Shown: in pieces, positions 6,745 through 34,102 of the stretch
Layout: each line of letters starts with the position of its first letter
How positions within the stretch are numbered: the stretch's first letter is position 1
Source: an uncultured Desulfovibrio sp.
GTDB taxonomy: Bacteria; Desulfobacterota; Desulfovibrionia; Desulfovibrionales; Desulfovibrionaceae
Direction: 5' to 3'
Length of the DNA stretch: 40,138 bases
Assembly: GCA_944327285.1 (NCBI GenBank)
Contig: CALVHG010000022.1
Coordinates: 1-40,138 of the forward strand
The notes under the pieces: model-generated
What the model was told of the DNA's origin: nothing
The model's input: the letters and a program-made list of their open reading frames with translations, nothing else
The model's database searches: none
Program-made: the position numbers and the translations under genes

Positions 6745-6868
6745 GTTGGGGGGAAGGGAAACCCCTCTGCTCGCGCAAGAGGGCCCAGCCTTTCCGCAGC
6801 GAAGCGAGGAAAGGCGTTCTTGTGATCCTTCCCCCCAAGCCCCCCATCCCTTCCCCAGTGCGCTTTTT
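6745..6868 (+). repeat. Family A repeat, copy A2
   Basis: GGGGGGAAGGGAAACCCC core, a GCTCGCGC loop, a short middle module with a GCCTTTCC/GGAAAGGC hairpin, then the C-rich tract and GTGCGCTTTTT end. It lies just after the htpG stop in the same direction as htpG. Its end runs directly into family B copy B2. Confidence 0.85.
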
Positions 6869-6870
6869 CA

Positions 6871-6982
6871 GAGCGTTTCAGACACAGCTCCCCGCCTCGA
6901 AGCGAGCGGAAAAACACGCTTTTTCCGTGAAACGACAGGCCGTATGGTCTGAAGCGCAAAGCGTTTCAAACTGAAATTGCTC
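6871..6982 (+). repeat. Family B element, copy B2 (internally shortened)
   Basis: Begins GAGCGTTTCAG and ends TTGCTC. The GGCGGC/GCCGCC stem is missing, while the GCGGAAAAA stem and the final GCGTTTCAAA stem are kept. It is joined to copy B3 by a single shared TA (6983-6984), so the two are in tandem. Confidence 0.8.
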
Positions 6983-6984
6983 TA

Positions 6985-7127
6985 GAGCGTTTCAACTTTG
7001 AAAAAGGAGAAACGCGAGGCGGCGGCACAGCGCCGCCCGGCCCAAAGTGAGCGGAAAAACACGCTTTTTCCGCAAAACGACAGGCCGTATGGTTTGAAGC
7101 GCAAAGCGTTTCAAACTGAAAATGCTC
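6985..7127 (+). repeat. Family B element, copy B3 (full length, 143 bp)
   Basis: Full copy running from GAGCGTTTCAACTTTG to TGAAAATGCTC, flanked by TA on both sides (6983-6984 and 7128-7129). All four internal hairpins are present. It can serve as the reference for the family. Positions 7130-7371 hold only a promoter-like sequence before the next gene. Confidence 0.85.
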
Positions 7128-7225
7128 TAAAGAGGGCGGGATCCTGCGGCACGTATTCCTCTATGGATATGCGCAGCTGCGGCCCGATGCCTGCTGGAAA
7201 AGATTTTATTTTCCCCTCGCAGCGT

Positions 7226-7253
7226 TTGTTTTCAGGCTTGTGTCTGATATAAA
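7226..7253 (+). promoter_or_regulatory. Candidate promoter of the AEC permease gene
   Basis: TTGTTT (7226-7231) and TATAAA (7248-7253) with a 16-bp spacer, in a locally AT-rich stretch upstream of the permease. A small inverted repeat TGTTTG/CAAACA follows near 7257-7272 and could be a regulator site. Support is from motif match only. Confidence 0.35.
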
Positions 7254-7371
7254 TATTGTTTGTTTAACCAAACAGTATTTTCTGGACATCCGTCGTCCGG
7301 GAGAGCATCATGCGCAGAGCGTGCACGGCGCAGAGGCTGCGCAGGATGCCCGCGAGGGAGATTTGGTTGTC

Positions 7372-8355
7372 ATGTTTGAAGCTTTTTTTGCGGTTCTGCC
7401 TGTTTTTCTGGTGATTTTTCTGGGTTCCTGGCTGCATGATCGCGACGTGCTGCCGGAGCAGACAGGCAATATGCTGGGGCTGATGGTGCTCAGGCTGTCA
7501 TTGCCGGCCCTGATTCTGCATATTCTGGCGGGGGCCAAAGCCTCCGATCTGGCCTATCCGGCCTTCTGGATAGGCATGTTCGGCGCGTCAGTCATTATTT
7601 ATTTTATCGGTTACTGGTTCGACAAGCTGCTGTGCCGCCGCGGCGAGGGCCCGGCAACCATTGTTGCGCTGGGCTGTTCTTCCTGTAACGCGGCCTTTGT
7701 AGGTCTGCCTATTGTGGCCAATCTTTTTCCCGGCAACGATGAAGCCATGCTTATTGCCGGCCTTGCGACCCTGACGCCTAATGCGGTCATGATTCTGGCG
7801 CAGTCGCGGCTGGACCTTCTGGCCGGGGAAACCGCCTGGAACGGCAGAAAGGGCGGGGCGCGTGTCTGGCATCTGTGCCGCGCGCTGCTGCTGGGGAACC
7901 CGGTTCTGCTTATGTCCGGCGTAGGGCTGATTTTGAGTCTGACCGGCATCGGTCTCTGGGGGCCGCTGGATCGTGTGGCCGAGCTCATCGGCAATACGGC
8001 CGCTCCCTGCATGCTTCTTTCGCTGGGCTTCGATCTGCGCCAAAAGCTGGCGCTGGCGGCGCGGCGCGGACAGGGGCATGCCTTTCTGCGTCAGGCCTGG
8101 GTTCTGCTGTGCAAGTTGATTCTGTTGCCGCTGCTGTCCTGGGGAATCATGGCCTATATCGGTCTGCCGCCGCTCTGGACGGCCATCGGCGTGCTGATCA
8201 GCGCCACAGGTTCGGCTCTGATTGCCTCCGTGCTGGCTGCCGTGTACAGCGCCATTGCCGAAGAAGCCGCTCTGACGGCTGTGCTTTCCAACGGTCTGAG
8301 CCTGTTCACGCTAACGGGCTTTATCTGGTTGTTCCGTCATCTGGGATATTTTTAG
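7372..8355 (+). CDS. AEC (auxin efflux carrier) family permease
   Basis: This 327-aa integral membrane protein has the hallmarks of the AEC transporter family: about ten hydrophobic segments in two five-helix halves, an N-terminal helix of the FFAVLPVFLVIFLGSW type, and conserved Asn/Pro positions in the first half (NAAFVGLPIV, typical of the family core). Characterised bacterial members move malate, malonate or other organic acids, but the substrate here cannot be read from sequence. I placed the start at the ATG at 7372, behind GAGGGAG (7354-7360). An upstream in-frame start would add about 44 polar residues with no family match. The gene is probably monocistronic: a repeat-rich gap lies before it and a truncated family A copy and a strong terminator follow. 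Confidence 0.85.
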   Translation: MFEAFFAVLPVFLVIFLGSWLHDRDVLPEQTGNMLGLMVLRLSLPALILHILAGAKASDLAYPAFWIGMFGASVIIYFIGYWFDKLLCRRGEGPATIVALGCSSCNAAFVGLPIVANLFPGNDEAMLIAGLATLTPNAVMILAQSRLDLLAGETAWNGRKGGARVWHLCRALLLGNPVLLMSGVGLILSLTGIGLWGPLDRVAELIGNTAAPCMLLSLGFDLRQKLALAARRGQGHAFLRQAWVLLCKLILLPLLSWGIMAYIGLPPLWTAIGVLISATGSALIASVLAAVYSAIAEEAALTAVLSNGLSLFTLTGFIWLFRHLGYF

Positions 8356-8361
8356 GTTTAT

Positions 8362-8395
8362 CCGGGGGGAAGGGAGACCCCCATCCCTCTTCCGA
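8362..8395 (+). repeat. Truncated family A copy
   Basis: Only the first arm (GGGGGGAAGGGAGACCCC) and a piece of the tail (CATCCCTC) remain, seven nt after the permease stop and in the gene's direction. The pairing arm is lost, so it cannot form the family hairpin. Confidence 0.6.
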
Positions 8396-8496
8396 AAACT
8401 TTTGATCAGGACAATGCGGCGCTGCGGCTGCTCTGTCGCTTTCCTCGCAATAAAACGTCCCCCGGCAGGGCCGTATGCTCCGGCCCCGGATTGCAG

Positions 8497-8541
8497 AAAA
8501 AGCCCCGAAGCGGAAAAGATGTTTCCGTTTCGGGGCTTTTT
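8497..8541. terminator. Bidirectional intrinsic terminator
   Basis: Twenty-bp stem (8497-8516 with 8522-8541) with one G-T mismatch, A5 at the left edge and T5 at the right. It lies between the convergent permease and beta-solenoid genes and can serve both. Confidence 0.85.
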
Positions 8542-8655
8542 GTTTGTGGGAATGAGGGGAGACGCGAAAGTAAAAGGCGTGTTTTTCTTTCAGTCTTTCC
8601 GGGAGACGGTCGCCTCAGGGAAAGCGACGGCGTTGCCGTAGCGTTTCATCCTTCA

Positions 8656-8812
8656 GAGAAAAGCGCGCTGGGGAAAGGATGGGGGGCTTGGGGGGAAGGG
8701 AAACACCTCTCGCGCCAGCAGCGACCGAATGGCGGCCGCAGGCCGTGCCCGTTGCGACGAAGGAAGCTACGGGCATCGACAGCAGAGATGAGGGGTTTCC
8801 CTTCCCCCCAAA
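8656..8812 (-). repeat. Family A repeat, copy A3 (long form)
   Basis: Reverse orientation. Read on the minus strand it has the GGGGGG core, the middle module (GCCCGTAG...ACGGGC, GCGGCCGC, in common with A1, A4 and A5), then the C-rich tract and GCGCGCTTTTC. It begins 17 nt after the minus-strand beta-solenoid stop and has that gene's direction. The plus strand carries a G-run cluster at 8670-8700. Confidence 0.85.
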
Positions 8813-8828
8813 ATTGCAAACGCCCAGG

Positions 8829-10845
8829 CTAAGCTGCTTCGGCGCGCTCCACGGCTTCCTGCGATGCTTCGGAAGCCCGTTGCGTCGCTTCGGCGGCGCG
8901 TTCGTCGATAGTGGCGGGGGTGCGCTCCTCTGAGATGTCTTCAATGGTTTCGCTGCGACGCCGTGCCTCGGCCTGTTCGAGGCGATCCAGGGATGCGGCA
9001 AGCAGGTCTTCCAGCGAGGCATTGGCGGAGCCGGTAAGATTGCCGGCGGCATTGCGCACCACGTCCCGATAGGTGTAGTTGACCAGAACGCCGTCATAAC
9101 TGCCGTCCACGGAAACGTCGATGTCGCGGGATTCTGCCGAAAGGACATGAATAATATTGTTGCCCTTGCCGGCCTTGATATAGGCGTTGTCCCGCATTTC
9201 CGTTACTAGGATGAAATTGTCGCCGTCGCCGACGGTCAGCCCGGCGCTGTTCTGTATGGTATTGATGAGCACCGAGTTGTTGCCGTGTCCGAGGATCGCG
9301 CTGGCGTTGTTCGACATGCCGCCTACGGTGAGCCAGTTCTTGCCGTCGCCGGAACGGAGGAGACTGTAGCCTGACATGCTGGAAATGCTGATTCTGTTGT
9401 TGCCATGCCCCAGCGTGACATCGCTGTTGATCTGAGCGCCGATGGCGACGATATTGTTTCCGTCGCCGCCGACAATGGCGCTCATGCTGACGCCGGCAAC
9501 GGCAAGCGTGTTGTCGCCCTTACCAGCTCAGATAACTCCGGGAGAGCGTGCCGCTGCCTGCGGCTTGACCCGTGATGGAAATATCGTTGTTGCCGTCGCC
9601 CAGCATGATGAGCCCGTCGAGCACGCCGGTAAGCGACAGCAGATTGTCGCCGTTGCCCAGCGTAATGTTGCTCCTTGTGGCTTCGCCAAGAACAATTTCG
9701 TTCTTGCCGTCGCCCAGCGCAATGAGCGAATCTGAAATATCGCTGTCGGCTGCGTCGCCGATCCACTGGGAAGCGGTGATGGTATTGTCGCCCTGCCCCG
9801 CAGTGAGGCTGGAGCCGCGGGTCATTTCTTCGAGGACGATGACGTTGTTGCCCTGTCCGAGATTCAGAATTGTGCTCGACAGGCCGATCCGCAGGATATT
9901 GTCGCCGTCGCCGAGAGACACCCGGCTGCTTTCAATGGCGGTGCAGCTTTCACCGCTTCCGGTGATGACATTCTTGCCGTTGCCCATGCTGATGTCGGAG
10001 GCCGTGATGCCATTGGCCTGCACAGTGTTGTCGCCGTCGCCGAGATCAACGGTGGCCCCGCGCAGATTGTCCGCCTTCAGACTGTCGTTGCCGTTACCGG
10101 TGCTGATGGTCGCGCCTTCCGCGTCGTCGGCGACGATAATGCGATCATCGCCGTCGCCGGTGGTGACGGAAACATTGTCGCCCGCCACGTGGACGGTATT
10201 GTCTCCGTTGCCCGCGGTAATGACGGCGTTATCGCCCAGGGCGAAGACCAGATTGTCGCCGTCGCCCAGCGAGATCTCGTCCGCGCCGGTGCTGATCATT
10301 ATAATATCGCCGTCGAGGTCCAGCAGATTACCCGCCGATTCGGTATAGCTGCCGTCGCTGCCATAGAGCCGCGTCACGCCGAGATCGGCATGATAGACGC
10401 TCCAGAAACCATCCTCTCCGGCGGCAATGGAAACGCTGCCGCTGAAATTCAGGGTGAAGCTGCTGCCGTCTTTGCCGTTGAGGACTGCCTGATATGTCGG
10501 GGCGGTGCTTTCGCCTTCTGCGGTCTCTGTGGCGCTGATGTCCACACGGACGCCAGAGGCGCTTTCTCCAGATAGGAGCGGCGGTTCTTCGGCGGCCTGC
10601 GCGGCCTGATTTTCCGGCTGCGGCTGTCCGGCCTGCTCCGTCGTCTGCGGCAGAGCGGCTGCGGCCTTCTGCTCTTCAAGGCGTCGCCGGGCTTCCTCGG
10701 AGATGCTGATCAGATCCTGCGATGCCTGCGGGGGCAGGGTGGTTCCTTCCTGCTGGAGCCGCGCGGCATTTTCCCGCAGCTTTTGCAGAATTTCTTCCCG
10801 GATGACGTCGTTCCCCAGCATGTCGGCAGCCGAAACCGTAGTCAT
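8829..10845 (-). pseudogene. Beta-solenoid repeat protein (about 19 GxGxN repeats), frameshifted near 9522-9531
   Basis: The gene starts at the ATG at 10845 behind GAGGAGAG. The first frame gives 441 aa and stops at 9520; the matching continuation is in another frame from about 9527 to 8829. With one base removed near 9528 the reading is about 671 aa. N-terminus: no signal peptide, then a charged helical stretch (about 15-65), a Gln/Pro/Ala linker and a short domain (about 120-190). Then come about 19 repeats of mostly 18-20 residues, each starting like LGDGDNxIxI, 12 before and 7 after the break. The C-terminus is a charged, probably coiled-coil tail rich in Glu, Ala and Arg. The repeats look like a parallel beta-roll/helix but lack the strict GGxGxDxLx RTX nonapeptide. 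No homopolymer marks the break, so slippage is not evident. Sequencing error, a recent mutation or a degraded gene are all possible. No secretion genes lie nearby. Confidence 0.75.
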
Positions 10846-11148
10846 AGGCTCTCTCCTCGCGTTCTCCGTACGCAATATGGTTAGAGACTCTATCGGCTGC
10901 TGTCTTGAATATATTACCGGCCCGCCGTTATTTTGAAAGCCCCTTGCTAATATATTGTTGAATAGAAGCCAGTTATGCCTGCGGATATGTCGGCAATGGA
11001 CAGGAGAGATTTTCTTTCTATCAGAAAAGAGAACAAAGACCTGCACAGCTCCTTTCTTAATAAAAATATTTAAAATTACTAATAAAATTGATATATTAAA
11101 AGATATTTTCAGAGAGGGAATCGCGTGTCTGCCGCGCAATCCTTTTTA
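10846..11148 (-). promoter_or_regulatory. AT-rich leader and probable promoter region of the beta-solenoid gene
   Basis: This 300-nt gap has no convincing gene. Positions 11030-11115 are far more AT-rich than anything else in the window. On the minus strand a TTTCAA-N16-TAATAT pair occurs near 10912-10939, a weak sigma70-like match. The remainder shows nothing I can assign. Confidence 0.35.
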
Positions 11149-11265
11149 GAGCGCTTTCGCTTTGAAAAAGGTATAACGCGAGGCGGCGGCATAGCGCCGC
11201 CCGGTCAAAAGTGAGCGGAAAAACGTGTTTTCCGCGAAACCACAGGCCGTATGGTTTGAAATGCC
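11149..11265 (+). repeat. Family B element, copy B4 (truncated)
   Basis: Begins TA-GAGCGCTTTCGC and ends at TTTGAAATGCC, having lost the terminal half of the last hairpin. The GGCGGC stem and the GCGGAAAAA stem remain. Its end directly abuts the TAA stop of the minus-strand SPOR gene. Confidence 0.75.
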
Positions 11266-11940
11266 TTAATGTACGGGCTTCTTGCTGCGCAGCAGCGGTT
11301 CGCCGAGGCGAAGAGATTTGAGCACCGCGGGCACTTCGGCAGCGCGCGCGGCATCGCCGCGCACCAGCAGGAAAATGACATAGAGCTTACCGCGCCGCTC
11401 CATGCGCGTCCGGTAGCCGCGTCCTTCAAGACGCTGCCGGATATCGTCCACGCTTTCCATATCCTTGAAGGCGGCCACCTGAAAGACGTAATCGAAGACC
11501 GTAGCCGGGGATGTGGGTTTGGCGGGCGGGGGCGGCGTCTGGCCGGGAGGCACGGCGGGGCGCATGCCCGGAGGCATGGCGGGCGCGGCTCCCTCCTTGT
11601 TTTTGTCGGCAGGGGGCGGGGGAGGCGTCAGCGGTTTTTCGCCGGGGGCGGCGCGCAGGGCCGTGGCATAGCGCAGGTCGCTGGGGTGCAGAACAGGGCC
11701 GTGCTCGTCTGCAGGCGCTTCCGTTTCCGCTTCGGGGGCGGGAGTGTCGCCGGACTCGACCTGCGGCGCGTGCCAGTGACTGCGTCCCGCCATAATGCCG
11801 CCCAGATAGGCAAGCACCAGCGCCGCCACGAAAAGGAAGGCGACGGCGGCCAGCGTTCCCGGCTTGAGGCGCAGTCCTCGGATCCTGGAGCCCGAAGGCG
11901 AAAGAGATGCCGAGGAGGCGGAACGTCGAGCTGAAGGCAT
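11266..11940 (-). CDS. Membrane-anchored SPOR-domain protein
   Basis: The 224-aa product has a basic, Ser-rich N-terminus, one transmembrane helix (about 28-50), a long Pro/Ala/Glu-rich periplasmic linker and a C-terminal SPOR domain (about 149-215, beginning FDYVFQVAAFKDMESVDDIRQRL). SPOR domains bind denuded peptidoglycan glycan strands, so a role at the division septum or in wall maintenance is likely (FtsN-like topology), but identity with FtsN is not shown. I set the start at the ATG at 11940, behind an AGGAG site (11945-11949); a longer start would add 16 unlikely residues. It is divergent from the secreted-protein gene at 12226. The stop codon abuts family B copy B4. Confidence 0.8.
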   Translation of the reverse strand: MPSARRSASSASLSPSGSRIRGLRLKPGTLAAVAFLFVAALVLAYLGGIMAGRSHWHAPQVESGDTPAPEAETEAPADEHGPVLHPSDLRYATALRAAPGEKPLTPPPPPADKNKEGAAPAMPPGMRPAVPPGQTPPPPAKPTSPATVFDYVFQVAAFKDMESVDDIRQRLEGRGYRTRMERRGKLYVIFLLVRGDAARAAEVPAVLKSLRLGEPLLRSKKPVH

Positions 11941-11978
11941 GATGTCTCCTTGTCTGAAATGATAATTTCCCCCTGCAT

Positions 11979-12007
11979 AACATAGCAACAGCCAGGGCTG
12001 TCGTCAA
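11979..12007 (-). promoter_or_regulatory. Sigma70-type promoter of the SPOR gene
   Basis: On the minus strand, TTGACG (12002-12007) and TATGTT (11979-11984) are separated by exactly 17 bp. A short inverted repeat (ACAGCC/GGCTGT) lies in the spacer and could be an operator. The rest of 11941-12225 contains nothing else I can name except a weak TTGACA-N19-TAGCAT on the plus strand at 12048. Confidence 0.55.
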
Positions 12008-12225
12008 AGTTAGGCGCCGAAGGACGCCGACAGGGCGGAAAAGCGGCTTGACAGACCGCCTGCCCCCTCTGGTAGCATTGCAACGTTTCTGTCGGCATTG
12101 GCAGGGACGCGCCGGGAAGGGACTGTTTCTTCCGATATGCAGTCCGACAATGCCGAGGCCTGTTTTTGCGGCTGTTGCCGTGAAATCGAAATTCTTTGCA
12201 GACCGAGAACAATGGGGCATACGCT

Positions 12226-13212: not shown

Positions 13213-13226
13213 TGTTAGACTCCGCG

Positions 13227-13262
13227 GAAGAAGGGGCGCGTCAGCTGCGCCCCTCTTCTTTT
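13227..13262 (+). terminator. Intrinsic terminator after the secreted-protein gene
   Basis: GC-rich stem (13227-13239 with 13247-13258, one bulge) around a TCAGCT loop, followed by T4. It lies 14 nt after the stop and 29 nt before the thiD start codon. Confidence 0.75.
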
Positions 13263-13290
13263 GCGGGATGACCAAGAAAAGGATGCCATC

Positions 13291-14094: not shown

Positions 14095-14114
14095 GGGGTA
14101 GGATATTTGTAGCT

Positions 14115-14416
14115 TGTTGGGGGGAAGGGAAACCCCTCATCTCTGCTGTCGATGCCCGTAGCTTCCTTCGTCGCAACGGGCACGGCCTACGGCCGCCATC
14201 CGGTCGCTGCTCGCGCGAGAGGGCCCAGCCTTTCCGAAGGAAAGGCGTTCTTGTAGTTCTTCCCCCCAAGCCCCCCATCCCTTCCCCAGCGCGCTTTTAT
14301 CGGGGGAAGAGTCAGGAATACGAGGCGACCGCGTCACCAAAGACAAGTAGCGTGTGTACAGTCTGTTTGTTCTATGTATTGAAATTATTGTAAATTTGTG
14401 TTAATAGCCGCCTAGG
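14115..14416 (+). repeat. Family A repeat, copy A4 (longest form)
   Basis: Contains the core, the middle module, the C-rich tract, GCGCGCTTTTATCGGGG and the long AT-rich tail that ends GTTAATAGCCGCCTAG. The tail matches copy A6 (17.66-17.77 kb) base for base over long runs. The usual head (GTTAACACTATTCG) is missing. It follows thiD in the same direction. Confidence 0.85.
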
Positions 14417-14440
14417 GCGTAGCTCTCTGATTTGTTTTTT

Positions 14441-14597
14441 CTGGGGGGAAGGCCCCCCTTATCGCTGCTGTCGATGCCCATTCCTTCGTCGCAACGGGCA
14501 TGGCCTGCGGCCGCCATTCGGTCGCTGCTCGCGCGAGAGGGCCCAGCCTTTCCGAAGGAAAGGCGTTCTTGTAGTTCTTCCCCCAGCGCGCTTTTTT
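14441..14597 (+). repeat. Family A repeat, copy A5 (tail-less)
   Basis: Second copy in tandem after A4: core (partly deleted), middle module and GCGCGCTTTTTT end. The C-rich tract is reduced to one block. It is not part of a gene. Confidence 0.8.
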
Positions 14598-14669
14598 ATG
14601 TGACAATTTTTCAAAGAGAGTCTGACAGGGGATAAAGTGGGCGTTTATACGGCCCGGAAAGAATGGAAT

Positions 14670-14743: not shown

Positions 14744-14765
14744 GTTCCTTTGTCAAAAAAATGTT

Positions 14766-14781: not shown

Positions 14782-14840
14782 ATGTCTTTTTCGACCACGG
14801 TATGCCGTGGCCGCAAGACCGTCAAAAGAAGGCTTTTCGC

Positions 14841-17375: not shown

Positions 17376-17397
17376 GCTTTACTGGCGGGCGTCTTAG

Positions 17398-17540
17398 AGC
17401 ATTTCCAGTTTGAAATGCTTCGCATTTCAAACCATACGGCCTGTCGTTTCGCGGAAAAAACGCGGTTTTTCCGCTCACTTTGGGCCGGGCGGCGCCGTGC
17501 CGCCGCCTCGCGTTTCACCTTTTTCAAAGTTGAAACGCTC
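17398..17540 (-). repeat. Family B element, copy B5 (full length, 143 bp)
   Basis: Reverse-oriented full copy flanked by TA on each side (17396-17397, 17541-17542). The last hairpin reads TTTGAAATGC/GCATTTCAAA, with G-C pairs of other copies replaced by A-T pairs in both arms. Its TA joins family A copy A6. Confidence 0.85.
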
Positions 17541-17542
17541 TA

Positions 17543-17766
17543 GGGCGTGTTACCACTATTCGTAAGTTGTTTGGGGGGAGGGAAACCCCTCTGCTCGCGC
17601 GAGAGGTGTTTCCCTCCCCCCAAGCCCCCCATCCCTTCCCCAGCGCGCTTTTATCGGGGAAAAGTCAGGAATACGAGGTGACTCCGCCACCAAAAACAAG
17701 TGGCGTGTGTACAGTCTGTTTATTTTATCTATTGAAATTATTTGTAAAATTTATGTTAACAGGCCC
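17543..17766 (+). repeat. Family A repeat, copy A6 (complete ends, no middle module)
   Basis: The best reference for family A. The left terminus GGGCGTGTTACC and right terminus GTTAACAGGCCC form an imperfect inverted repeat beginning at CTAG. Inside are the hairpin (arms near 17573-17590 and 17605-17620, loop GCTCGCGC), the C-rich tract, GCGCGCTTTTATCGGGG and an AT-rich tail. It lies exactly between family B copies B5 and B6. Confidence 0.85.
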
Positions 17767-17768
17767 TG

Positions 17769-17903
17769 GAGCAATTTCAGTTTGAAATGCTTTGCATTTC
17801 AAACCATATGGCCTGTCGTTTCGCGGAAAAAGCGCTGTTTTTCCGCGAAATTTTGTCTGGGCGGCGCTGTGCCGCCGCCTCGCGTTTCACCGTTGAAACG
17901 CTC
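17769..17903 (-). repeat. Family B element, copy B6
   Basis: Reverse-oriented copy, 135 bp, running GAGCAATTTC to AACGCTC, with a short deletion in the GAAACGC hairpin. The right TA (17904-17905) plus the adjoining C is the TAG stop codon of the GNAT gene on the minus strand. The stretch 17181-17902 is thus almost wholly repeats plus one terminator. Confidence 0.8.
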
Positions 17904-18382
17904 TAATGTTTCTCCAGGTGCAGCAGAGGGTACGGCCGGCCGTCGCCATCCAGCGGCGAACGACCAATAACGGCGAATCCTTGCGCCAGATAGAAGCGCA
18001 GAGCCGGTTCATTGGCTTCGTTAACGTCAAGGCGCACGGGAGCATCGTCAGGAGGGGGCAGACAGGCGCAGGCATGTTGCAGCAGCGCCGTGCCAATACC
18101 TCGACGAAAGACGGCGGGATCGAGAAATAGCATTTCAATGCTGCGCTCCCGGCTGCCGACAAAACCGAGGGGACCGTCGTCGTCCGTCGCCATCCAGATA
18201 TGCTGCATGGCAGGGAAATAGCAGGGGATAAGAGCTCGCTCGATGAAGTCCAGATCTCCGCGGGAGACGAAGCCATGCGTTGCCGCGACGCTGCGACGCC
18301 AGAGACGTCGCAAGGCGGGCCAGTCCGCGGGGCATGCCGCTCGAATACCTATATTTCCTGTAATCCTACTTTGTTTCGGCAC
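17903..18382 (-). CDS. GNAT-family N-acetyltransferase
   Basis: The 159-aa protein has the GNAT fold: an N-terminal IRAACPADWPALRRLW segment, a central GPLGFVGSRE...IEMLFLDPAVF strand pair, the acetyl-CoA pyrophosphate loop FRRGIGTALL (about 93-102), and a C-terminal ANEPALRFYLAQGFAVIGR motif. It would transfer an acetyl group from acetyl-CoA to an amine; the substrate is not predictable. The start is uncertain: GTG at 18382 is the longest candidate, with a poor ribosome site. The stop codon overlaps the edge of family B copy B6. It is a single gene between repeats, and no operon partner is evident. Confidence 0.8.
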   Translation of the reverse strand: MPKQSRITGNIGIRAACPADWPALRRLWRRSVAATHGFVSRGDLDFIERALIPCYFPAMQHIWMATDDDGPLGFVGSRERSIEMLFLDPAVFRRGIGTALLQHACACLPPPDDAPVRLDVNEANEPALRFYLAQGFAVIGRSPLDGDGRPYPLLHLEKH

Positions 18383-18450: not shown

Positions 18451-18573
18451 GGGATAAAGCGCGTTTGGGGAGGGGAGAGGGGAGTTTGAGGGGGGAGGGG
18501 AATCCCCTTTGTGCGCGAGCCAAAGGGGTTCCCCTCCCCCCTCAATTTATCCTTTTCAAAGATAAGACACTCT
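18451..18573 (-). repeat. Family A repeat, copy A7, with family B-like terminus
   Basis: The hairpin arms here read TTGAGGGGGGAGGGGAA and its complement, a variant in which both arms have changed together relative to other copies. The C-rich tract is on the minus strand, after the tamB stop. Next to that stop the sequence TAGAGTGTCTTATCTTTG resembles a decayed family B end, and supplies the tamB TAG. The remainder of 18383-18571 holds nothing else. Confidence 0.75.
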
Positions 18574-24300: not shown

Positions 24301-24439
24301 GCTTGTGGTGATACCGTGAAAGCACCATCACCGCAAGCCGCAACGCGGCTGTCTCGCTGGGATTCCAGCCGGGAAAAGAAAAATGACGCCGTATCGGAAT
24401 AGCGATTTTGGGGCATTGAGAAGGGGGCAGGAATGGAGA

Positions 24440-24491
24440 CAGGGGGAAGGGACCCCCCTCCGCTCGTGCGGGAAGGGTTTCCTTTCCCCCT
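24440..24491 (-). repeat. Family A hairpin fragment, copy A8a
   Basis: CAGGGGGAAGG (24440-24450) pairs with CCTTTCCCCCTG (24480-24491); the loop includes GCTCGTGCGGG. It is a core-only copy with no head or tail, in the 391-nt gap upstream of tamA. Confidence 0.6.
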
Positions 24492-24519: not shown

Positions 24520-24694
24520 AGAGCGTTTCAACTTGTCTTTGGTGGCGGGGTCGCCTCGTATTCCTGACTTTTCCCCGATAAAAGCGCGCTGGGGAAGGGA
24601 TGGGGGGCTTGGGGGGAAGGGAAACACCTCTCGCGCGAGCAGAGGGGGGTCCCTTCCCCCCAAAACAACTTACGAATAGTGTTAACAGGACCTA
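24520..24694 (-). repeat. Family A repeat, copy A8b, chimeric with a family B terminus
   Basis: Reverse orientation. From the ssb side: terminus TAGGTCCTGTTAACAC, head, hairpin with GCTCGCGC-type loop, C-rich tract, GCGCGCTTTTATCGGGG, then part of the AT-rich tail that stops at GACAAG and joins TTGAAACGCTCTGG, a family B end. The first three bases of the terminus are the TAG stop of ssb. A G-run cluster occupies 24591-24621 on the plus strand. Confidence 0.85.
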
Positions 24695-25234
24695 GAAGGG
24701 AACTTCGTCCATAGCGGAGGCTTCCGAGGGGAAGGCGGGACCGAGATCTTCACGGCCTTGCGGCGCGTTCTGGGGCTGGCTTTGCGGGCGGGGAGCCGAC
24801 TGGCGGGGGGCGGCGTTGTAGTTGCCGCCGCGCTGCTGGCGGGGCGCGGGGGCGCCGTAGTCGTCTTCATAGCCGCCGGGCGCGGGGGCGCCCGCAGCCG
24901 GGCCGCTGCCGCGGCGGTCGAGGAACTGGACGCGCTGGGCCTTGATTTCGGTGGTATAGCGATCCTGCCCGTTTTGGTCCTGCCATTTGCGGGTTTGCAG
25001 GCTGCCTTCCACATAGACAAGGCTGCCCTTGGTCAGGTAGTTGGCGCAGTTTTCGGCCTGCCGCTGGAAAACGGAGACGCGGTGCCATTCCGTGCGTTCT
25101 ACCTTGTTTCCGTCGCGATCGGTATAGGATTCATCGGTGGCAATATTCAGGGTCGCAATGGGCGCGCCGGTCTGGGTGTAGCGCAGTTCGGGATCGCGTC
25201 CCAGATGACCGATGATCATGACTTTGTTCAGCAT
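24692..25234 (-). CDS. ssb: Single-stranded DNA-binding protein
   Basis: The 180-aa protein binds and protects ssDNA in replication and repair. The OB-fold occupies residues 1-110 (MLNKVMIIGHLGRDPELRYTQ, WHRVSVFQRQAENCANYL, VYVEGSLQTRKW). The Gly/Pro/Gln-rich disordered tail runs from about 115, and the acidic tip MDEVPF ends with the Pro-Phe that binds partner proteins. Start and GGAGGGGAGA ribosome site (minus strand, near 25245) are clear. The stop codon is the end of the family A terminus, but the tip is intact. The operon partner upstream is the 265-aa protein, 107 nt away. Confidence 0.95.
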   Translation of the reverse strand: MLNKVMIIGHLGRDPELRYTQTGAPIATLNIATDESYTDRDGNKVERTEWHRVSVFQRQAENCANYLTKGSLVYVEGSLQTRKWQDQNGQDRYTTEIKAQRVQFLDRRGSGPAAGAPAPGGYEDDYGAPAPRQQRGGNYNAAPRQSAPRPQSQPQNAPQGREDLGPAFPSEASAMDEVPF

Positions 25235-26139: not shown

Positions 26140-26214
26140 GGCGATCCTTTACCCGGCCTGCGCCGGGGAGAAAAAGGGACGGCTGCCGCCGGATGCTGGC
26201 ACTCGTCCTGAAGT

Positions 26215-26240
26215 GCGCGGAAAAACGTGTTTTTTCCGCT
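26215..26240 (+). repeat. Family B fragment (GCGGAAAAA hairpin only)
   Basis: GCGGAAAAACGTGTTTTTTCCGC, the third hairpin of family B, without the rest of the element. It is upstream of the 265-aa gene. Positions 26140-26406 hold this fragment, family A copy A9 and no gene. Confidence 0.45.
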
Positions 26241-26303
26241 AAATAGGATGCATCTGCTGCGCGTTTTTAATAAGACGACTACCGTATGCTTCCACATCCG
26301 TCT

Positions 26304-26413
26304 GAAAAAGCGCGCTGGGGAAGGGATGGGGGCCTCTGGGGGAAGGGAAACACCTCTCGCGCGAGCAGAGGGGTTTCCCTTCCCCCAGAACAAGTTATGA
26401 ATGGCGTTAGCCC
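26304..26413 (-). repeat. Family A repeat, copy A9
   Basis: Reverse orientation: head GGGGCTAACGCCATTCATAACTTG (shortened form of GGGGCTGTTAACACCATTCG), hairpin with GCTCGCGC loop, C-rich tract, GCGCGCTTTTTC. The TAA stop of the BCCP-like gene is within the GGGGCTAACG terminus. Confidence 0.85.
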
Positions 26414-27057: not shown

Positions 27058-27069
27058 GGGCGGCCTTCC

Positions 27070-29313: not shown

Positions 29314-29339
29314 AGGTTCGTGTATCCCGGTCAGGCCCG

Positions 29340-30785
29340 TTAGAAGCGCAGGATGCGCTCGGTATTGGCGCGAAGGAAGTTGACGTTGGATTTGAGGCTG
29401 TCGCCCGCGGCGTTATGCCCTTCAAGCACCAGCCCGTCGAGGAATTCCCGGCCGCGGGCCTTGGCCTCGTCCAGATCCTTGCCCCAGACAATGGCCAGCG
29501 CCAGATTGGGGTCGAATTCCGTCGGGATTTCATAAGGTTCGTCAGTCGGCACGTGGGTCAGCATGGTCAGCCACGGCTGATCCTGCCAGCTGAAGCGTTC
29601 GATGCGGCCGACCCACGGGGTAAAGCGGTTGTCCGGGTCTTCGGCAATAAGGCGGTATTCGATGCCCACGCCGTCAAAGGCGATGGCTTCCTGACCGTAG
29701 CCCAGCGGCTGGCCCAGACCGGTGCGGATCTGCTCGGCGATGAGATCCACGCCGCCCTCGTTGTTGACCGTGGAAATACGGGCGGAAACGCCGTTTTCCA
29801 CTTGAATGCGGGTGTTCACTTCCATGAGGAAGGGATCGCCGTTGCGGGTGACGATCCATTCCCAGGTGCCTACGTTGTCGTAGCCGACCTTGCGGGCCAT
29901 GGTCAGCGAATAGTGGACGATGTCCACCAGCACCTTTTCGGCGTTGAAGCTGTAGCTAATGTTGTGGGGCGCGAAGCCCGGCGCAACTTCGATGCGCTTT
30001 TGCAGGCCGGTGGACTGGATAGAGCAGTTGCGCGTGCCGAAGTGCACGGGATGCTGCCCGGAACGATCCGACACAATCTGCACTTCAAGGTGGTTGAAGT
30101 CGGTAATGCGCTGCTCGATGAGCACGCCCTCGTCCTTGAACTGGCGCAGGGCATAGTTGCGGATGCGGCGATAGACCGAGCGGAACATGTCGATATCGTA
30201 GACTTCCTCGATACCCATGCCGCCGCCGCCCGCCGAGGCCTTGACCAGCACCAGCGGGCGCTTGATGCCCTGCTGTTCCTGAAATTCAAAGACGCTGCGC
30301 GCAATGCGCTCGGCTTCCACTTCGTCATAAATGGGACGGTCGGAACCCGGCACCGTAGGCACGCCGAGGCTGCGGGCCAGACGCTTGGTATTAATCTTGT
30401 CGCCCAGCTCGCGGATGATTTTCCACGAGGGGCCTATGAATATCATTTTTCGGTCGCGCTTGGTCACGCGGCGGGCAAAGCGGAAATCTTCGGCAAAGAA
30501 GCCGTATCCCGGATGCACGGCCGTGCATTCCGCCACGTCGGCCACGGCCATGAGCTCGTTTGCGTCATGGTAGGACGAAACGCGGTACAGGCTTTTTTCG
30601 CCGCCGTGTTCGCGGGCATGGCGCACATGGCCGGAGGCGGCGTCTTCCGCCGTGTAGATGGCGCAGAAGGGCAGGCCCAGCTTGGCGCAGGCCCGCATGA
30701 TACGAATGGCGATTTCGCCGCGGTTTGCCACCAGAACCTTGTGCTGGTTCAGCGGCAGCTTGTACAGGTCTTGCAATGTGCTCAT
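29340..30785 (-). CDS. accC: Biotin carboxylase (AccC-type)
   Basis: The 481-aa ATP-grasp enzyme carboxylates biotin on the carrier with ATP and bicarbonate. N-terminal ANRGEIAIRIMRA (about 20-32), the glycine-rich ATP lid KASAGGGGMGI (about 183-193), and the active-site segment E(V)NTRIQVEN (about 330-339) are present. The last motif reads VENGVSAR where VEHPVTE is common; the catalytic Asn-Arg-Gln-Val-Glu residues are kept. The start at 30785 has AGGAG on the minus strand. It is first in the operon accC-accAD-BCCP-like and divergent from the nucleoside phosphorylase gene. The acyl-CoA type is inferred from the AccA/AccD partner; a pyruvate carboxylase partner domain is absent. Confidence 0.88.
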   Translation of the reverse strand: MSTLQDLYKLPLNQHKVLVANRGEIAIRIMRACAKLGLPFCAIYTAEDAASGHVRHAREHGGEKSLYRVSSYHDANELMAVADVAECTAVHPGYGFFAEDFRFARRVTKRDRKMIFIGPSWKIIRELGDKINTKRLARSLGVPTVPGSDRPIYDEVEAERIARSVFEFQEQQGIKRPLVLVKASAGGGGMGIEEVYDIDMFRSVYRRIRNYALRQFKDEGVLIEQRITDFNHLEVQIVSDRSGQHPVHFGTRNCSIQSTGLQKRIEVAPGFAPHNISYSFNAEKVLVDIVHYSLTMARKVGYDNVGTWEWIVTRNGDPFLMEVNTRIQVENGVSARISTVNNEGGVDLIAEQIRTGLGQPLGYGQEAIAFDGVGIEYRLIAEDPDNRFTPWVGRIERFSWQDQPWLTMLTHVPTDEPYEIPTEFDPNLALAIVWGKDLDEAKARGREFLDGLVLEGHNAAGDSLKSNVNFLRANTERILRF

Positions 30786-30826
30786 AGGTCTCCTGCCGAC
30801 GGCGCGGATGAACTGCGGGCCGGTGC

Positions 30827-30855
30827 TTGTGAACCGCGCCGCGCCGGGCTATAGT
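30827..30855 (+). promoter_or_regulatory. Promoter of the nucleoside phosphorylase gene
   Basis: TTGTGA (30827-30832) and TATAGT (30850-30855) with a 17-bp spacer. It lies in the 162-nt divergent region between accC and the phosphorylase. Confidence 0.55.
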
Positions 30856-30859
30856 GCGC

Positions 30860-30875
30860 GGGGCAAATTTGCTCC
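30860..30875. promoter_or_regulatory. Near-palindromic operator-like site
   Basis: GGGGCAAATTTGCTCC, a 16-bp near-perfect palindrome starting 4 nt downstream of the -10 box above. Its position would let a bound regulator block transcription. The GCAAA/TTTGC core recalls LacI-family sites, but no such regulator is in the window. Confidence 0.35.
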
Positions 30876-30947
30876 ACGACAAAAGGCCTCCGCCGCGACA
30901 GGCACGCCGGAGGGCGAAGGAAAGCGAGTATTTCAGGAGGCATTTTG

Positions 30948-31793
30948 ATGCAAAATTTCCCAGAAGTCCAGCTTGCCGTTGCGGCGCTGAAGGCCCGTTT
31001 CGACGCGGAGAGCGGTTTTGCAAGCGGAGACGAACCCATAGGGCTGATACTCGGCACCGGACTTTCCGGCCTTGGCGCGTCCCTGGAGGGGGCCGTTCGC
31101 GTTCCCTGGGAGGAGCTGCCCGGCTTCCGGGCCTCCACGGTCCAGAGTCATTCCGGCTGCTTTGCGCTCGGCCGCTTGGGCCCCGGACGGCGGCTTGTGC
31201 TTGCTCAGGAAGGACGCCGCCATCTTTATGAAGGCGCAAGCCCGGCCGAAGTCTGCATGGGCGTGCGCGTCATGGCCGGTCTGGGCGTGCGCCGCCTGAT
31301 CATCACCAATGCTTCGGGGGCCATCAATCCCCAGTTCGACGCGGGCGGCCTGCTCTGTATGACCGATCAAATCAACGCCACGGGGCGTTCTCCTCTTGTG
31401 GGCCCCAACGACGATGCCGCAGGGCCGCGTTTCCCCGACATGAGCGCTCCTTTTGACGCCGAACTGCGCGCGCTGGCGCTCGAATGCGCCCGCAGGGAAG
31501 GGATTCGGCTGGAGCGCGGAGTCTACATTGGCGTGCTGGGGCCGCAGCTGGAAACGCCCGCCGAAACCCGCATGTACCGGCAATGGGGCGCGGATGCCGT
31601 GGGCATGAGCACGGTGCTGGAAGTCATCGCCGCCCGTCATCTCGGTATGCGCGTGCTGGGGCTTTCGTGCATGACAAACAAGAATCTGCCGGACTGCATG
31701 GCTCCCGCCACCATTGAGGAAATCGTGGCCACGGCCGAAAAAAGCGGCGTCGCGCTGGCCCGCCTCCTGACGGCGGTGGTGACAAGCATGTAA
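30948..31793 (+). CDS. Purine-nucleoside phosphorylase (PNP/MTAP family)
   Basis: The 281-aa trimeric-type purine nucleoside phosphorylase splits inosine or guanosine with phosphate to base plus ribose-1-phosphate in the cytosol. Phosphate-site motifs: LGTGLSG (about 32-38), the SHSG segment near 65, and RRHLYEG (about 87-93). Other family marks are NASGAI (about 120), the LGPQLETPAETRMYRQWGADAVGMSTVLEVIAA region (about 197-228), and CMTNKN near 240. It belongs to the PNP/MTAP superfamily II, not the DeoD type. The ATG at 30948 has AGGAGG at 7 nt. typA follows 80 nt later on the same strand, with no terminator between. Confidence 0.9.
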   Translation: MQNFPEVQLAVAALKARFDAESGFASGDEPIGLILGTGLSGLGASLEGAVRVPWEELPGFRASTVQSHSGCFALGRLGPGRRLVLAQEGRRHLYEGASPAEVCMGVRVMAGLGVRRLIITNASGAINPQFDAGGLLCMTDQINATGRSPLVGPNDDAAGPRFPDMSAPFDAELRALALECARREGIRLERGVYIGVLGPQLETPAETRMYRQWGADAVGMSTVLEVIAARHLGMRVLGLSCMTNKNLPDCMAPATIEEIVATAEKSGVALARLLTAVVTSM

Positions 31794-31873
31794 AAAATGG
31801 GTATTCTTACCGCCTTCCAAAACAGCAATCCGCCCCGCAGTTCCGGGCAACGTCTTTTACAAGGTCAGAGAGG

Positions 31874-33703
31874 ATGCAGCAGAATAATCACCTTCGCAAC
31901 GTGGCGATCATCGCCCACGTCGATCACGGCAAAACCACTCTCGTGGATGGTCTTTTCAAGCAGGCGGGCGTCTTTCGCGACGACCAGCAGGTGGATGACC
32001 GCGTTATGGACAGCATGGATCTGGAACGCGAACGCGGCATTACCATTGCGGCCAAGAACTGCGCCGTCAACTGGAAGGGCGTAAAAATCAATATCATCGA
32101 CACTCCCGGCCACGCCGACTTCGGCGGCGAAGTGGAGCGCTCCCTTTCCATGGCCAGCGGCGCGATCTTGCTGGTGGACTCTTCCGAAGGGCCCCTGCCC
32201 CAGACCCGCTTCGTGCTGCGCAAGACGCTTGAGGCCGGTCTGCCCGTGGTGGTCATCATCAACAAGATTGACCGCAAGGACGCCCGCCCCGACGAAGTGC
32301 TCAACGAAATTTACGATCTGTTCATCGACCTCGGCGCCACCGACGAGCAGCTGGAATTCCCCGTGCTCTACGCCATCGGGCGCGAGGGCGTGGCCATGCG
32401 CAATCTTGACGACGAGCGTAAGGACTTCACGCCGCTTTTCGAGACCATTCTCGAAAAAATCCCCGGTCCTTCCTATGATCCCGATCAGCCCTTCCAGATG
32501 CTGGTGGCCGATCTCGACTACTCCGACTATCTCGGTCGTCTGGCCGTGGGGCGCATCATGCACGGCAAGGTCTACGCCAAGGAAGCGCTCGCCTGCATCG
32601 GCGAAAACGGCGAGCCCCGTCCCCTGCGCGCCACCAAGTTGCAGGTCTATGACGGTTTGCAGTTGTCGGAAGTGGAAGAGGCCGAACCCGGCGACATCGT
32701 TGTGCTTGCCGGTATCGAAGATGTGACCATCGGCGACACCATCTGCACGCGGGAAGCTCCGGCCGCCCTGCCGCGTATCCGCGTGGACGAGCCGACCGTG
32801 GCCATGCGCTTCGGCATCAATACCTCTCCTCTGGCCGGGCGCGAAGGCAAGCTCGTGCAGAGCCGCGCCATCCGTGATCGTCTGGTCAAGGAATGCCTGC
32901 GCAATGTGGCCGTGCGTCTGGAGGATACCGCGGACAAGGATGCATTCCTCGTCAAGGGGCGCGGCGAATTCCAGATGGCCATTCTCATTGAAACCATGCG
33001 CCGCGAAGGTTTCGAGCTGTCCGTTGGTCGTCCCGAAGTCATTCTCAAGAAGGATGAAAACGGCACGACCCTTGAGCCTATCGAGCACCTCTACGTGGAT
33101 TGCGACGAAGTGTTCATGGGCGTCGTGACCGACAAGCTCAATCAGCGCAAGGGCCGTATGCTCAACTGCATCAACAATGGCACCGGCCGCGTGCGTCTTG
33201 AATTCACTGTGCCTTCCCGCGGCCTCATCGGCTATCGCGACGAGTTCCTGACCGATACCAAGGGAACCGGCATCATGAACTCGTATCTCGAAGGCTATGA
33301 GGAATGGCGCGGCGATTTCCCCACCCGCTATTCGGGCTCCATTGTGGCCGACCGTCCCGGCAACGCCGTGGCCTACGCCCTGTTCAACCTTGAGCCGCGC
33401 GGCGTCCTTTTCGTGGAGCCCGGCGATCCCGTCTATGAAGGTATGATCGTGGGCGAGCACAACCGCGACAACGACATCGACGTGAACGCCACCAAGGAAA
33501 AGAAGCTGACCAACCTGCGCGCCGCAGGCAAGGATGAAAACGTCATCCTTACTCCGGTCAAGAAGATGACCCTTGAACACGCTCTCCACTTCGTTCGCGA
33601 AGACGAACTTGTGGAAGTCACCCCCCTCTCCATCCGTCTGCGCAAGGTCGAACTCTCGGCCCAGAAGCGTTACCAGATGGCCGGGGCCAAGAAGAAAGGG
33701 TAG
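31874..33703 (+). CDS. typA: Ribosome-binding translational GTPase BipA/TypA
   Basis: The 609-aa EF-G-like GTPase associates with 70S ribosomes and helps 50S assembly and stress adaptation. GTPase motifs: AHVDHGKTT (G1), DTPGHADFGGE (G3), NKIDR (G4). EF-G-type domains follow, with the GRGEFQMAILIETMRREGFELSVGRPEV segment near 365-392 and a C-terminal BipA domain near 490-600. Length is normal. The ATG at 31874 has AAGG at 9 nt. It probably shares the phosphorylase transcript, or has a weak promoter in the 80-nt gap. Family A copy A10 begins 8 nt after the stop. Confidence 0.96.
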   Translation: MQQNNHLRNVAIIAHVDHGKTTLVDGLFKQAGVFRDDQQVDDRVMDSMDLERERGITIAAKNCAVNWKGVKINIIDTPGHADFGGEVERSLSMASGAILLVDSSEGPLPQTRFVLRKTLEAGLPVVVIINKIDRKDARPDEVLNEIYDLFIDLGATDEQLEFPVLYAIGREGVAMRNLDDERKDFTPLFETILEKIPGPSYDPDQPFQMLVADLDYSDYLGRLAVGRIMHGKVYAKEALACIGENGEPRPLRATKLQVYDGLQLSEVEEAEPGDIVVLAGIEDVTIGDTICTREAPAALPRIRVDEPTVAMRFGINTSPLAGREGKLVQSRAIRDRLVKECLRNVAVRLEDTADKDAFLVKGRGEFQMAILIETMRREGFELSVGRPEVILKKDENGTTLEPIEHLYVDCDEVFMGVVTDKLNQRKGRMLNCINNGTGRVRLEFTVPSRGLIGYRDEFLTDTKGTGIMNSYLEGYEEWRGDFPTRYSGSIVADRPGNAVAYALFNLEPRGVLFVEPGDPVYEGMIVGEHNRDNDIDVNATKEKKLTNLRAAGKDENVILTPVKKMTLEHALHFVREDELVEVTPLSIRLRKVELSAQKRYQMAGAKKKG

Positions 33704-33710
33704 GTTTTTA

Positions 33711-33800
33711 TTGAGGGGGGAAGGAAACCCCTTGGCTAGCGCGCAAGGGGGTTCCTTCCCCCCTCAAACTCCCCCCATCCTTCCCCAACGCGCTTTATTC
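33711..33800 (+). repeat. Family A repeat, copy A10
   Basis: Hairpin TTGAGGGGGGAAGGAAACC (33711-33729) with its complement (33750-33768), with a GGCTAGCGCGC loop; both arms carry AAGGAAA instead of AAGGGAAA. The C-rich tract and AACGCGCTTTATTC follow. It has the direction of typA. The interval 33801-33912 shows nothing assignable. Confidence 0.85.
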
Positions 33801-33912
33801 TGGTAGATGGGCGGCATTTGTTCCTGTTCGCTTTCCATCCTTTGCCGTCCCCCGGAAGCGCATGCAGATTTTCAATTTCAGAACCGTGTGTTAGGGAATA
33901 TTCCAGAGATGT

Positions 33913-33949
33913 AAAAGGCCGCTTGTCAGTGTGACAGGCGGCCTTTTTT
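33913..33949. terminator. Bidirectional intrinsic terminator
   Basis: Sixteen-bp stem (33913-33928 with 33932-33947) with one G-T pair, A4 at the left and T6 at the right end. It lies between two family A copies pointing at each other, in the convergent region of typA and the lutB-lutA gene. Confidence 0.85.
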
Positions 33950-34012
33950 GCTGTGTATCCGGGAGACGGTAACGACAGAAAAGCGGCGATATTCCCGAAC
34001 GGCCCGATTTAT

Positions 34013-34102
34013 CTGAATAAAGCGCGTTGGGGGAAGGATGGGGGGCCCGGGGGGAAGGAAACATCCCTTGCGCGCCAGCCAAGGGGGGGTCCTTCCCCCC
34101 GG
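34013..34102 (-). repeat. Family A repeat, copy A11
   Basis: Reverse orientation: hairpin core around 34050-34100, then C-rich tract on the minus strand and AACGCGCTTTATTC. It lies after the lutB-lutA terminator and has that gene's direction. Confidence 0.85.

Follow-up and report, generated by a model that had tools for sequence, protein, structure and literature searches.

Family A is a hairpin repeat found behind gene 3' ends in a 40,138-nt stretch of DNA from an uncultured Desulfovibrio sp. (contig CALVHG010000022.1 of assembly GCA_944327285.1; the whole stretch is called the window). The window is one contig (C22) of a metagenome-assembled genome of 3.33 Mb in 179 contigs, 99.95% complete (G000, the own genome), and its HtpG is 99% identical to HtpG of Candidatus Desulfovibrio intestinigallinarum. 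The copies were counted, placed and oriented by class, and both the two hairpin arms and the tail and arm were found to covary. The C-rich tail that follows the hairpin behaves as a third strand, and the patterns described below suggest that the selected unit is probably an intrastrand triplex rather than a plain hairpin. The family is mixed, one part being MITE-like (miniature inverted-repeat transposable element) and landing both ways, and another part being strongly sense with respect to the preceding gene. Structure and role together could well be those of a PIT/BoxC-like intrastrand-triplex element that is kept behind stop codons and influences transcription at 3' ends, a reading to which we give slightly less than even weight.

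In the canonical unit, a 5' purine arm (e.g. GGGGGGAAGGGAAA) and an apical CCCCTCT or CCCCTT lead into a CGCG-type loop. The complementary 3' arm comes next, and after a further 0-4 nt come a C-rich tail and then (A)GCGCGCTTT. The hairpin is near-palindromic and the tail is one-sided; therefore, the tail sets the direction of the unit. A preliminary description of this DNA had proposed a hairpin with a CGCG-type loop core. Hairpin and core are both present, the tail had been missed, and the data point to a three-stranded unit.

Covariation of the Two Arms

A covariance model was built from 22 copies, 16 from the relative G006 and six from the window. Among these copies, 90.6% of the cells paired, against 77.0% after shuffling, and changes on both sides were observed in 15/19 pairs (80 cells against 29.8 shuffled); 0/500 shuffles reached either value, the tested pairing structure having come from the same alignment as the test. 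When the partner was shifted by one column, the paired cells dropped from 90.6% to 71-73%. One of the five measures, further pair types, gave no excess (24 against 25.7 shuffled). When 12 base pairs were tested, the pairing was 0.988 in the own genome and 0.979 in G006, against 0.777 and 0.731, respectively, with the arms swapped. At the typA element, the own copy and its orthologue in the relative G020 differ by a change in both arms, and at the element beside an hsdS-like gene, the arms of the own genome and G006 differ yet match within each genome. The arm covariation that the preliminary description had reported from the window was thus found again, and it persists in the larger set from two genomes.

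Covariation of the Tail with the Arm

In the anchored test, the first GGG of the arm and the first CCC of the tail were the sole alignment points of each copy, and 2000 tail swaps were used for comparison. Tests on compact elements were limited to copies with the stem close to the tail (50 in the own genome and 22 in G006, including the terminator at locus L205 and a tail-less hairpin at 2108), and the anchored test was narrowed further to distinct copies whose tail measures 16-27 nt (39 and 20). In the own genome, the tail matched the purine arm in parallel (mirror) order at 288/378 positions (swapped, 0.662; z 6.0), and in G006 at 130/178 (swapped, 0.565; z 5.0), values that 0/2000 swaps reached in either genome. 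The anchored antiparallel control gave no signal (z -1.6 in the own genome and 1.0 in G006), and with sliding windows of 12 in G006 the parallel z was 4.1 against 1.3 for the antiparallel order. An antiparallel (direct-repeat) pairing of the tail was rejected, as its signal vanishes when anchored. Copying machinery yields direct or inverted copies, not mirror copies, and the tail pattern is therefore taken to indicate a parallel third strand.

The tail A-run equalled the apical T-run in 46/49 own and 18/20 G006 copies. Tail A was located at arm-A positions in 28/156 (own) and 9/57 (G006) cases and at arm-G positions in 6/222 and 1/121; swapped tails placed 23.0 over arm A in the own genome (30/2000 reached 28) and 4.8 in G006 (2/2000 reached 9). 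Tail A over arm A would be compatible with a T.A-T triplet on the opposite strand. The best-fitting code had C over G-C and C-G, T or A over A-T, and A over T-A. Scored over the whole tail with this code, the own copies reached 14.66 against 12.26 for swapped tails (n 44, z 10.6) and the G006 copies 14.74 against 10.49 (n 19, z 7.1), with 0/2000 swaps reaching each value. Under the mirror-copy, pyrimidine-motif-only and A/T-exchanged codes, the absolute scores of the own copies were 5.52, 2.57 and 7.16, respectively. The same block order was observed in a further relative, G026, namely C6-AT-CC-TT-C-A6 against G6-AA-G3-AA-C-T4 (T4/A6 block), with a mean score of 13.40 against 0.13 for reversed tails, and the second G-run there correlated with the second C-run (r 0.87, n 18).

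Position and Direction behind Stop Codons

The orientation set of the own genome comprised 776 kb (23% of the genome), in which 542 genes were called with a codon-phase hexamer model trained on those contigs. From 78 tail matches (<=4 mismatches), 72 were classified, the other six lying at contig edges and being dropped. Scoring of orientation, as proposed in the preliminary description, gave 55 sense and 14 antisense copies with 3 divergent, so the near-50:50 split named there as the counter-case was not seen in the 776 kb.

Judged by the sequence after the tail and the presence of transposon ends, the 72 copies fell into four classes (X 21, Y 9, Z 11, O 31). The MITE ends are GGGCCTGTTAACA and the target is CTAG. 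Classes Y and Z (20/72) have a right end in 18/20 and a left end in 13/20 copies, and classes X and O (52/72) in 1/52 and 7/52. The MITE classes Y and Z showed 10 sense, 8 antisense and 2 divergent copies; those without a right end, X and O, showed 45 sense, 6 antisense and 1 divergent (p 1.8e-8), class X alone being 19:1 sense with 1 divergent. The sense:antisense ratio differs between copies with and without the right end (Fisher p 0.006), and a stricter test between the two groups, of codirectional against antidirectional plus divergent copies, was not significant (p 0.07). The preliminary description had set the family against a transposon, which would land in both directions; this contrast fails, since part of family A is itself a transposon-like MITE (10:8), beside the copies without the right end (45:6).

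MITE ends were matched 65 times (control, 0), and 10 end pairs lay within 4 kb of each other, spaced by 211-340 nt with no called gene between. One class Z copy of the sister genome, G022, has CTAG at both ends, which lie on two contigs broken inside the repeat, and the own genome has no insertion there. No autonomous parent was noticed; the inner 75 nt at the ends of 30 loci resemble the MITE itself by eye, and no search for transposases was made. The hairpin-tail module is perhaps carried by two or more types of element.

The samples from the relatives are incomplete, with 34 copies of G006 and 22 of G026 against 132 and 83 model matches, the G026 places being the best-scoring ones. The G006 sample took 34 of 35 tail matches, L225:835 being left out as it has no hairpin. 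These copies were 31:3 sense and 15:19 leading:lagging, with replichores assigned by eye from GC skew and the stretches L208 and L227 contradicting their half; the bias therefore follows transcription, not replication, and a replication-strand effect was rejected for G006. In the G026 sample, read by hand, 20/22 copies were sense (20:2). A recognisable MITE end was found near 1/34 G006 copies (L225) and near none at the fetched G026 loci. The data support a structure that is selected, as the preliminary description had held, or otherwise maintained, and direction and position behind stop codons are found in the G006 and G026 samples as well.

Among the 47 compact own copies whose upstream gene is codirectional, 37 have the start of the stem 4-33 nt past the stop codon. 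CTAG was observed 328 times in the 776 kb against 575 expected, with 97 places at stop codons, 29 inside coding sequence and 202 elsewhere in intergenic DNA (repeats included). The genes before sense copies end with TAG in 34/54, against 245/541 overall (p 0.009). CTAG targeting can thus account for the place of MITE-derived copies, not for their direction.

An unrelated repeat of the same genome, family B, has TAGAGC...GCTCTA ends and a CGAAACGACAGGCCGTATGG core, with 148 core matches in the 776 kb.

Copies in the Window

Ten of the 23 match rows that the covariance model gave in the window at E<=1 were full-length and strong, with scores of 56.8 to 120.1 bits and E values of 4.5e-17 to 1.1e-37. 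The remaining rows were weaker: 2056-2183, 14542-14620, the hairpin 24441-24491, and matches on the opposite strand of the same palindromes. The copies follow gene 3' ends, as first described. Eight were found by the tail pattern and classified, and each has a codirectional gene on its 5' side (htpG, the minus gene ending at 8829, thiD, truA at 449 nt, ssb, the minus gene ending at 26407, typA and the minus gene ending at 34165). The copy after tamB (18454-18545), detected via its stem and not by the tail pattern, is also sense, in line with the direction first described. For the copy reported after the AEC permease gene, a fragment was recognised, and no model match at E<=1 was obtained. The features are as follows.

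75..311 (copy 105-286), plus strand: long form of family A with extra hairpins in the loop and 3' arm, 56.8 bits; MITE left end CTAGGGGCTGTTAACA at 74-89; at the window edge, outside the orientation set
2108..2154 (model match 2056-2183), no strand assigned: tail-less hairpin, 28.3 bits on the minus and 18.9 on the plus strand
6747..6872, plus strand: element after htpG (stop 6719) with an extra hairpin in the 3' part, tail 6844-6866; model and tail match
8366..8400 (approximate), plus strand: fragment after the AEC permease gene, purine arm only, read by eye
8652..8812, minus strand: long form after the minus gene ending at 8829, tail 8660-8682; 87.7 bits
14115..14298, plus strand: long form after thiD (stop 14094), tail 14275-14297; model and tail match
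14435..14616 (model match 14542-14620), plus strand: second long form, truncated, in tandem to the thiD-side copy; 19 bits
17540..17769, plus strand: complete MITE, inverted ends CTAGGGCGTGTTACCA / TGTTAACAGGCCCTGG flanking the hairpin (17571-17623) and the tail with GCGCGCTTT (17624-17651); model match
18454..18545, minus strand: element after tamB (stop 18572), stem base TTGAGGGGGG/CCCCCCTCAA, tail A-run of 3; stem and model match
24439..24491, no strand assigned: hairpin between tamA and ssb without a recognised tail; 45.3 bits on the plus and 31.6 on the minus strand
24571..24695, minus strand: element after ssb (stop 24692), MITE left end 24680-24695, MITE right part truncated; model and tail match
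26307..26389, minus strand: element about 17 nt after the minus gene ending at 26407, stem base TCTGGGGG/CCCCCAGA; model and tail match
33711..33796, plus strand: element after typA (stop 33703), stem TTGAGGGGGGAAGGAA.../...TTCCTTCCCCCCTCAA, candidate third-strand tail, CGCGCTTT; model match; compensated arm change in the G020 orthologue
33797..33856, plus strand: 3' domain X (CTGG.AGATGG ... CCGTCCCCCGGA), found behind the tail in many copies without transposon ends
33913..33951, plus strand: ordinary intrinsic terminator downstream of the typA element, read by eye; hairpin folded
34019..34102, minus strand: element after the minus gene ending at 34165, here beyond an intrinsic terminator; model and tail match; hairpin deleted in G022
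6882-7133, 11147-11273, 17394-17546, 17755-17915, 2157-2310 and 40009-40138: family B

The direction of the hairpin at 24441-24491 is uncertain because matches occur on both strands. The long forms (105-286, 8659-8812, 14117-14298 and 14435-14616) contain conserved internal hairpins, GATGCCCGTAGCTTCCTTCGTCGCAACGGGC... and CAGCCTTTCCGAAGGAAAGGCG, in the loop and 3' arm. RNAalifold on the X set gave the main hairpin only, the set having included misassigned family B copies (28, and 21 after their removal), and long-range pairing in domain X was weighed by eye. For the G026 copies, RNAalifold again gave only the main hairpin, a weak result as the alignment held both strands of most of the palindromic hairpins. 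No match to Rfam at the gathering score was obtained in the window, and a known structured RNA family was rejected on this ground.

Proposed Mechanism and Alternatives

Read as a three-stranded unit, family A would be a hairpin with purines in its 5' arm, pyrimidines in its 3' arm and a CGCG-type loop, and the pyrimidine-rich tail, 0-4 nt further on, would lie along its stem as the third strand. On the sense strand, the code would depart in places from a normal pyrimidine motif, whereas on the antisense (template) strand it would give a regular G/A/T third strand, with G.G-C, A.A-T and T.A-T near the base; near the loop the purines would switch strand, and beyond the switch G.G-C and T.A-T would follow. 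Alternate-strand triplexes are known, and RNA third strands fit the purine motif poorly. The antisense reading would correspond to a purine-motif DNA triplex, with no acid required, and the reading of the stem base draws on antiparallel purine-motif triplets as described in PMC4666352.

At least part of the spread of the unit would occur within a small transposon targeting CTAG, a site rare in genes and common at TAG stops, and the sense copies just behind a stop codon would be those that last. Transcription would open the template strand, the triplex would fold behind the polymerase, and a one-way roadblock or insulator would form between the coding end and what follows, upstream of or beside an ordinary terminator. 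From the sequence patterns we infer triplex formation in cells, in DNA rather than RNA, selection keeping the sense copies, and the roadblock role. A role of the element in transcription is put forward tentatively. The fullest form of the proposal, a genus-level family of one-way DNA triplex elements with up to hundreds of copies per genome, in which an alternate-strand purine-motif triplex on the template strand behind stop codons would be kept by three-strand covariation in separate branches and serve as a direction-dependent transcription insulator at gene 3' ends, is more doubtful still.

Several observations weigh against the triplex proposal. In free sliding windows, the antiparallel order was also significant in the own genome (z 5.8-6.4), with z of 2.3, 1.3 and 1.3 in G006 (windows of 10, 11 and 12). 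The other codes beat swapped tails as well (mirror-copy z 10.0 and 6.4, pyrimidine-motif-only 7.8 and 5.0, A/T-exchanged 8.2 and 4.9 in the own genome and G006, respectively), and a C-rich tail helps any code with C over C-G; parallel tracking is therefore well supported, the exact triplet rules less so. The tail-swap test was not significant in G026 (13.40 against 13.13, 358/2000 reaching), because the arms there scarcely vary. In the typA orthologue pair, the arm change is not followed by the tail, and type I loops (TCT) misfit the code at the last tail positions by eye. The swap tests ignore shared descent, and the independent changes are fewer than the counts. Family B is also sense-biased, 86:45 in the orientation as read (p 0.0004; of the 148 matches, 9 lay at edges and 8 were divergent), and direction alone is therefore no proof of function; a general tendency of repeats in the own genome toward sense is possible. 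Compared with family B, family A copies without the right end are more biased (p 0.0018), as are the G006 copies (p 0.003), and those with the right end are no different (p 0.44). Finally, work cited in PMC4666352 reports E. coli PIT/BoxC elements without a terminator, promoter or RNA polymerase effect.

The element might instead act at the RNA level: the sense transcript would fold into the long hairpin, possibly joined by the C-rich tail as an RNA third strand of the pyrimidine motif, and would so protect or mark the mRNA 3' end, a sharper form of the 3'-UTR element inferred in the preliminary description. The sense bias and the short distance from stop to stem are consistent with a 3'-untranslated region (3'-UTR) element, as are the U-tracts ahead of many stems in G006 and G026, the advantage of the pyrimidine-motif-only code over swapped tails, and the typA 3' UTR, which, together with the downstream terminator hairpin, folds at -108.4 kcal/mol against -76.3 for shuffled sequences (z -6.8). 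However, the pyrimidine motif fits the lower stem only (it scores 2.57 in the own genome and 3.00 in G006, where the full code reaches 14.66 and 14.74, respectively), C+.G-C triplets require acid, and a hairpin alone would protect both ways, with no need of a covarying tail; this explanation appears somewhat unlikely. We regard as unlikely, too, an ordinary MITE with no host function, for which CTAG targeting would lead to stop codons, hairpin-templated repair would keep the arms perfect, antisense copies would be lost through a G-rich tract in the mRNA, and descent would do the rest. The inverted ends, the CTAG at both ends of one copy, the location of CTAG at stops, the lack of bias in copies with terminal inverted repeats (TIRs), the sense bias of family B and the very uneven copy number among species all fit it. 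Against this, hairpin-templated repair copies an arm to its partner and should not yield a parallel (mirror) copy in the tail, and the G006 and G026 copies, nearly all of which lack a recognisable end, are nevertheless sense behind stops.

A terminator, intrinsic or Rho-related, in which the hairpin would expose the C-rich tail as a loading site, had been suggested in the preliminary description in its general form. A C-rich, G-poor tail directly after a stable hairpin behind a stop, mainly in the sense direction, would suit such a role, but none of the 22 aligned copies has a U-tract directly after the hairpin, the C-rich tail standing in its place, and by build the element was rejected as an intrinsic terminator. 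At six G006 loci (L204, L205, L207, L208, L214 and L215), an ordinary intrinsic terminator was seen by eye directly after the tail. Terminators within 190 nt of the tail follow 12/54 own sense copies, and control genes have one within 250 nt of the stop in 67/230; with a frequency near that of other genes, the element neither clearly replaces nor needs a terminator. The covariation of tail and stem would also be left unexplained, and the suggestion is not supported and seems very improbable.

Distribution among Genomes

The tail pattern (23 nt, <=3 mismatches) was searched in 61 genomes with the reversed pattern as control, and eight had a match. The carriers, all of the same genus, were the own genome (294 matches; reversed control, 0), G022 (198), G020 (139; this genome is 79% complete), G006 (21) and G008 (6). 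Three further genomes had one match each at 3 mismatches, and the reversed control gave 1 match in all 61 genomes. The 24 genomes outside the genus had no tail-pattern match. The covariance model was run on seven chosen genomes with 150 candidates scored in each, and gave 132 matches in G006, 83 in G026 (a branch missed by the tail pattern), 19 in G008, 7 in G029, 2 each in G002 and G025, and 0 in G045, of another genus; these counts cover both strands of one palindromic hairpin and hence are not copy numbers. Several own contigs, for example C21, C34, C78 and C92, start inside or a few bases from a family A copy. Family A repeats break the assembly, and copy numbers are therefore uncertain.

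Positional conservation of the copies is limited. A 17-kb stretch of G006 syntenic to part of the window (L200) has no tail match, and by sequence reading its typA is followed by an apparent ordinary terminator. The element beside the hsdS-like gene is common to the own genome and G006. In G022, two cases were seen in which the hairpin was lost or damaged by deletion. A blastn search of a plasmid collection with the MITE region gave no match, and dissemination by plasmids was rejected on this basis.

Relation to Known Repeats

According to PMC4666352, PIT/BoxC/TM_ECO elements are intergenic multi-copy repeats with three neighbouring tracts on one strand able to form a G/C-rich purine-motif triplex, and their copy number varies strongly between close relatives; family A resembles them in both respects. 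Its three consecutive tracts lie on one strand, and the tail tracks the arm in parallel (z 5 to 10 over swaps), the exact triplet rules being less certain. TM_ECO is described there as ∼34-37 nt in the order Y-R-R (class II), with 23 copies in E. coli K-12, no strand bias, a position more often upstream than downstream of genes, and no occurrence with transposons. In contrast, the tract order of family A is R-Y-Y when read on the sense strand, which that paper defines as class III, and R-R-Y (class I) on the other; the family also has a longer stem that switches the purine strand, and hundreds of own copies, most of them sense behind stops and part of them in a MITE. As the tailed copies are R-Y-Y / R-R-Y and not Y-R-R, a BoxC element was rejected.

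REP/BIME repeats are likewise hairpin repeats in 3' regions, some of them right behind stop codons. Unlike REP/BIME with RAYT, family A has a far longer stem, and part of its copies have inverted ends and a CTAG duplication. The Y1_Tnp domain (PF01797) was not found in the own genome (99.95% complete), G020 (79% complete), G008 or G026, with 10 matches in G006 and 1 in G022, and a RAYT/REP origin was rejected because no such gene was found in the own genome. ERIC-type MITEs are non-autonomous, short and intergenic with TIRs, as in family A; unlike ERIC/RU MITEs, however, only the TIR-bearing subset of family A is a MITE by build, and most copies have no recognisable right end.

No description of such a Desulfovibrio repeat was found among the literature matches listed, most subscription papers lying outside their scope. 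Bacterial triplex-forming repeats have been described since at least 2000 (cited in PMC4666352), and neither a function at the level of genes nor a direction is known to have been assigned to them. The gut Desulfovibrio repeat would give this known, function-less class a place and a direction, and the preferred place and direction of family A copies make it testable whether natural triplex repeats do anything. A third strand that changes with the stem across copies is the type of evidence by which RNA helices were established.

Two related arrangements were observed in the other genomes. By eye, after ssb in G022 (L196) and G020 (L171), a second small transposon-like unit has other ends (CAGGACTCATTAT...ATAATGAGTCCTG in G022) and the same type of hairpin and C-rich tail. 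At the G026 loci L303-L322, another 3' domain, with a small hairpin such as CAGGGCGTACCCTG, recurs after many tails, where the own genome and G006 have domain X (GGAGGATGG...CCGTCCCCCGG).

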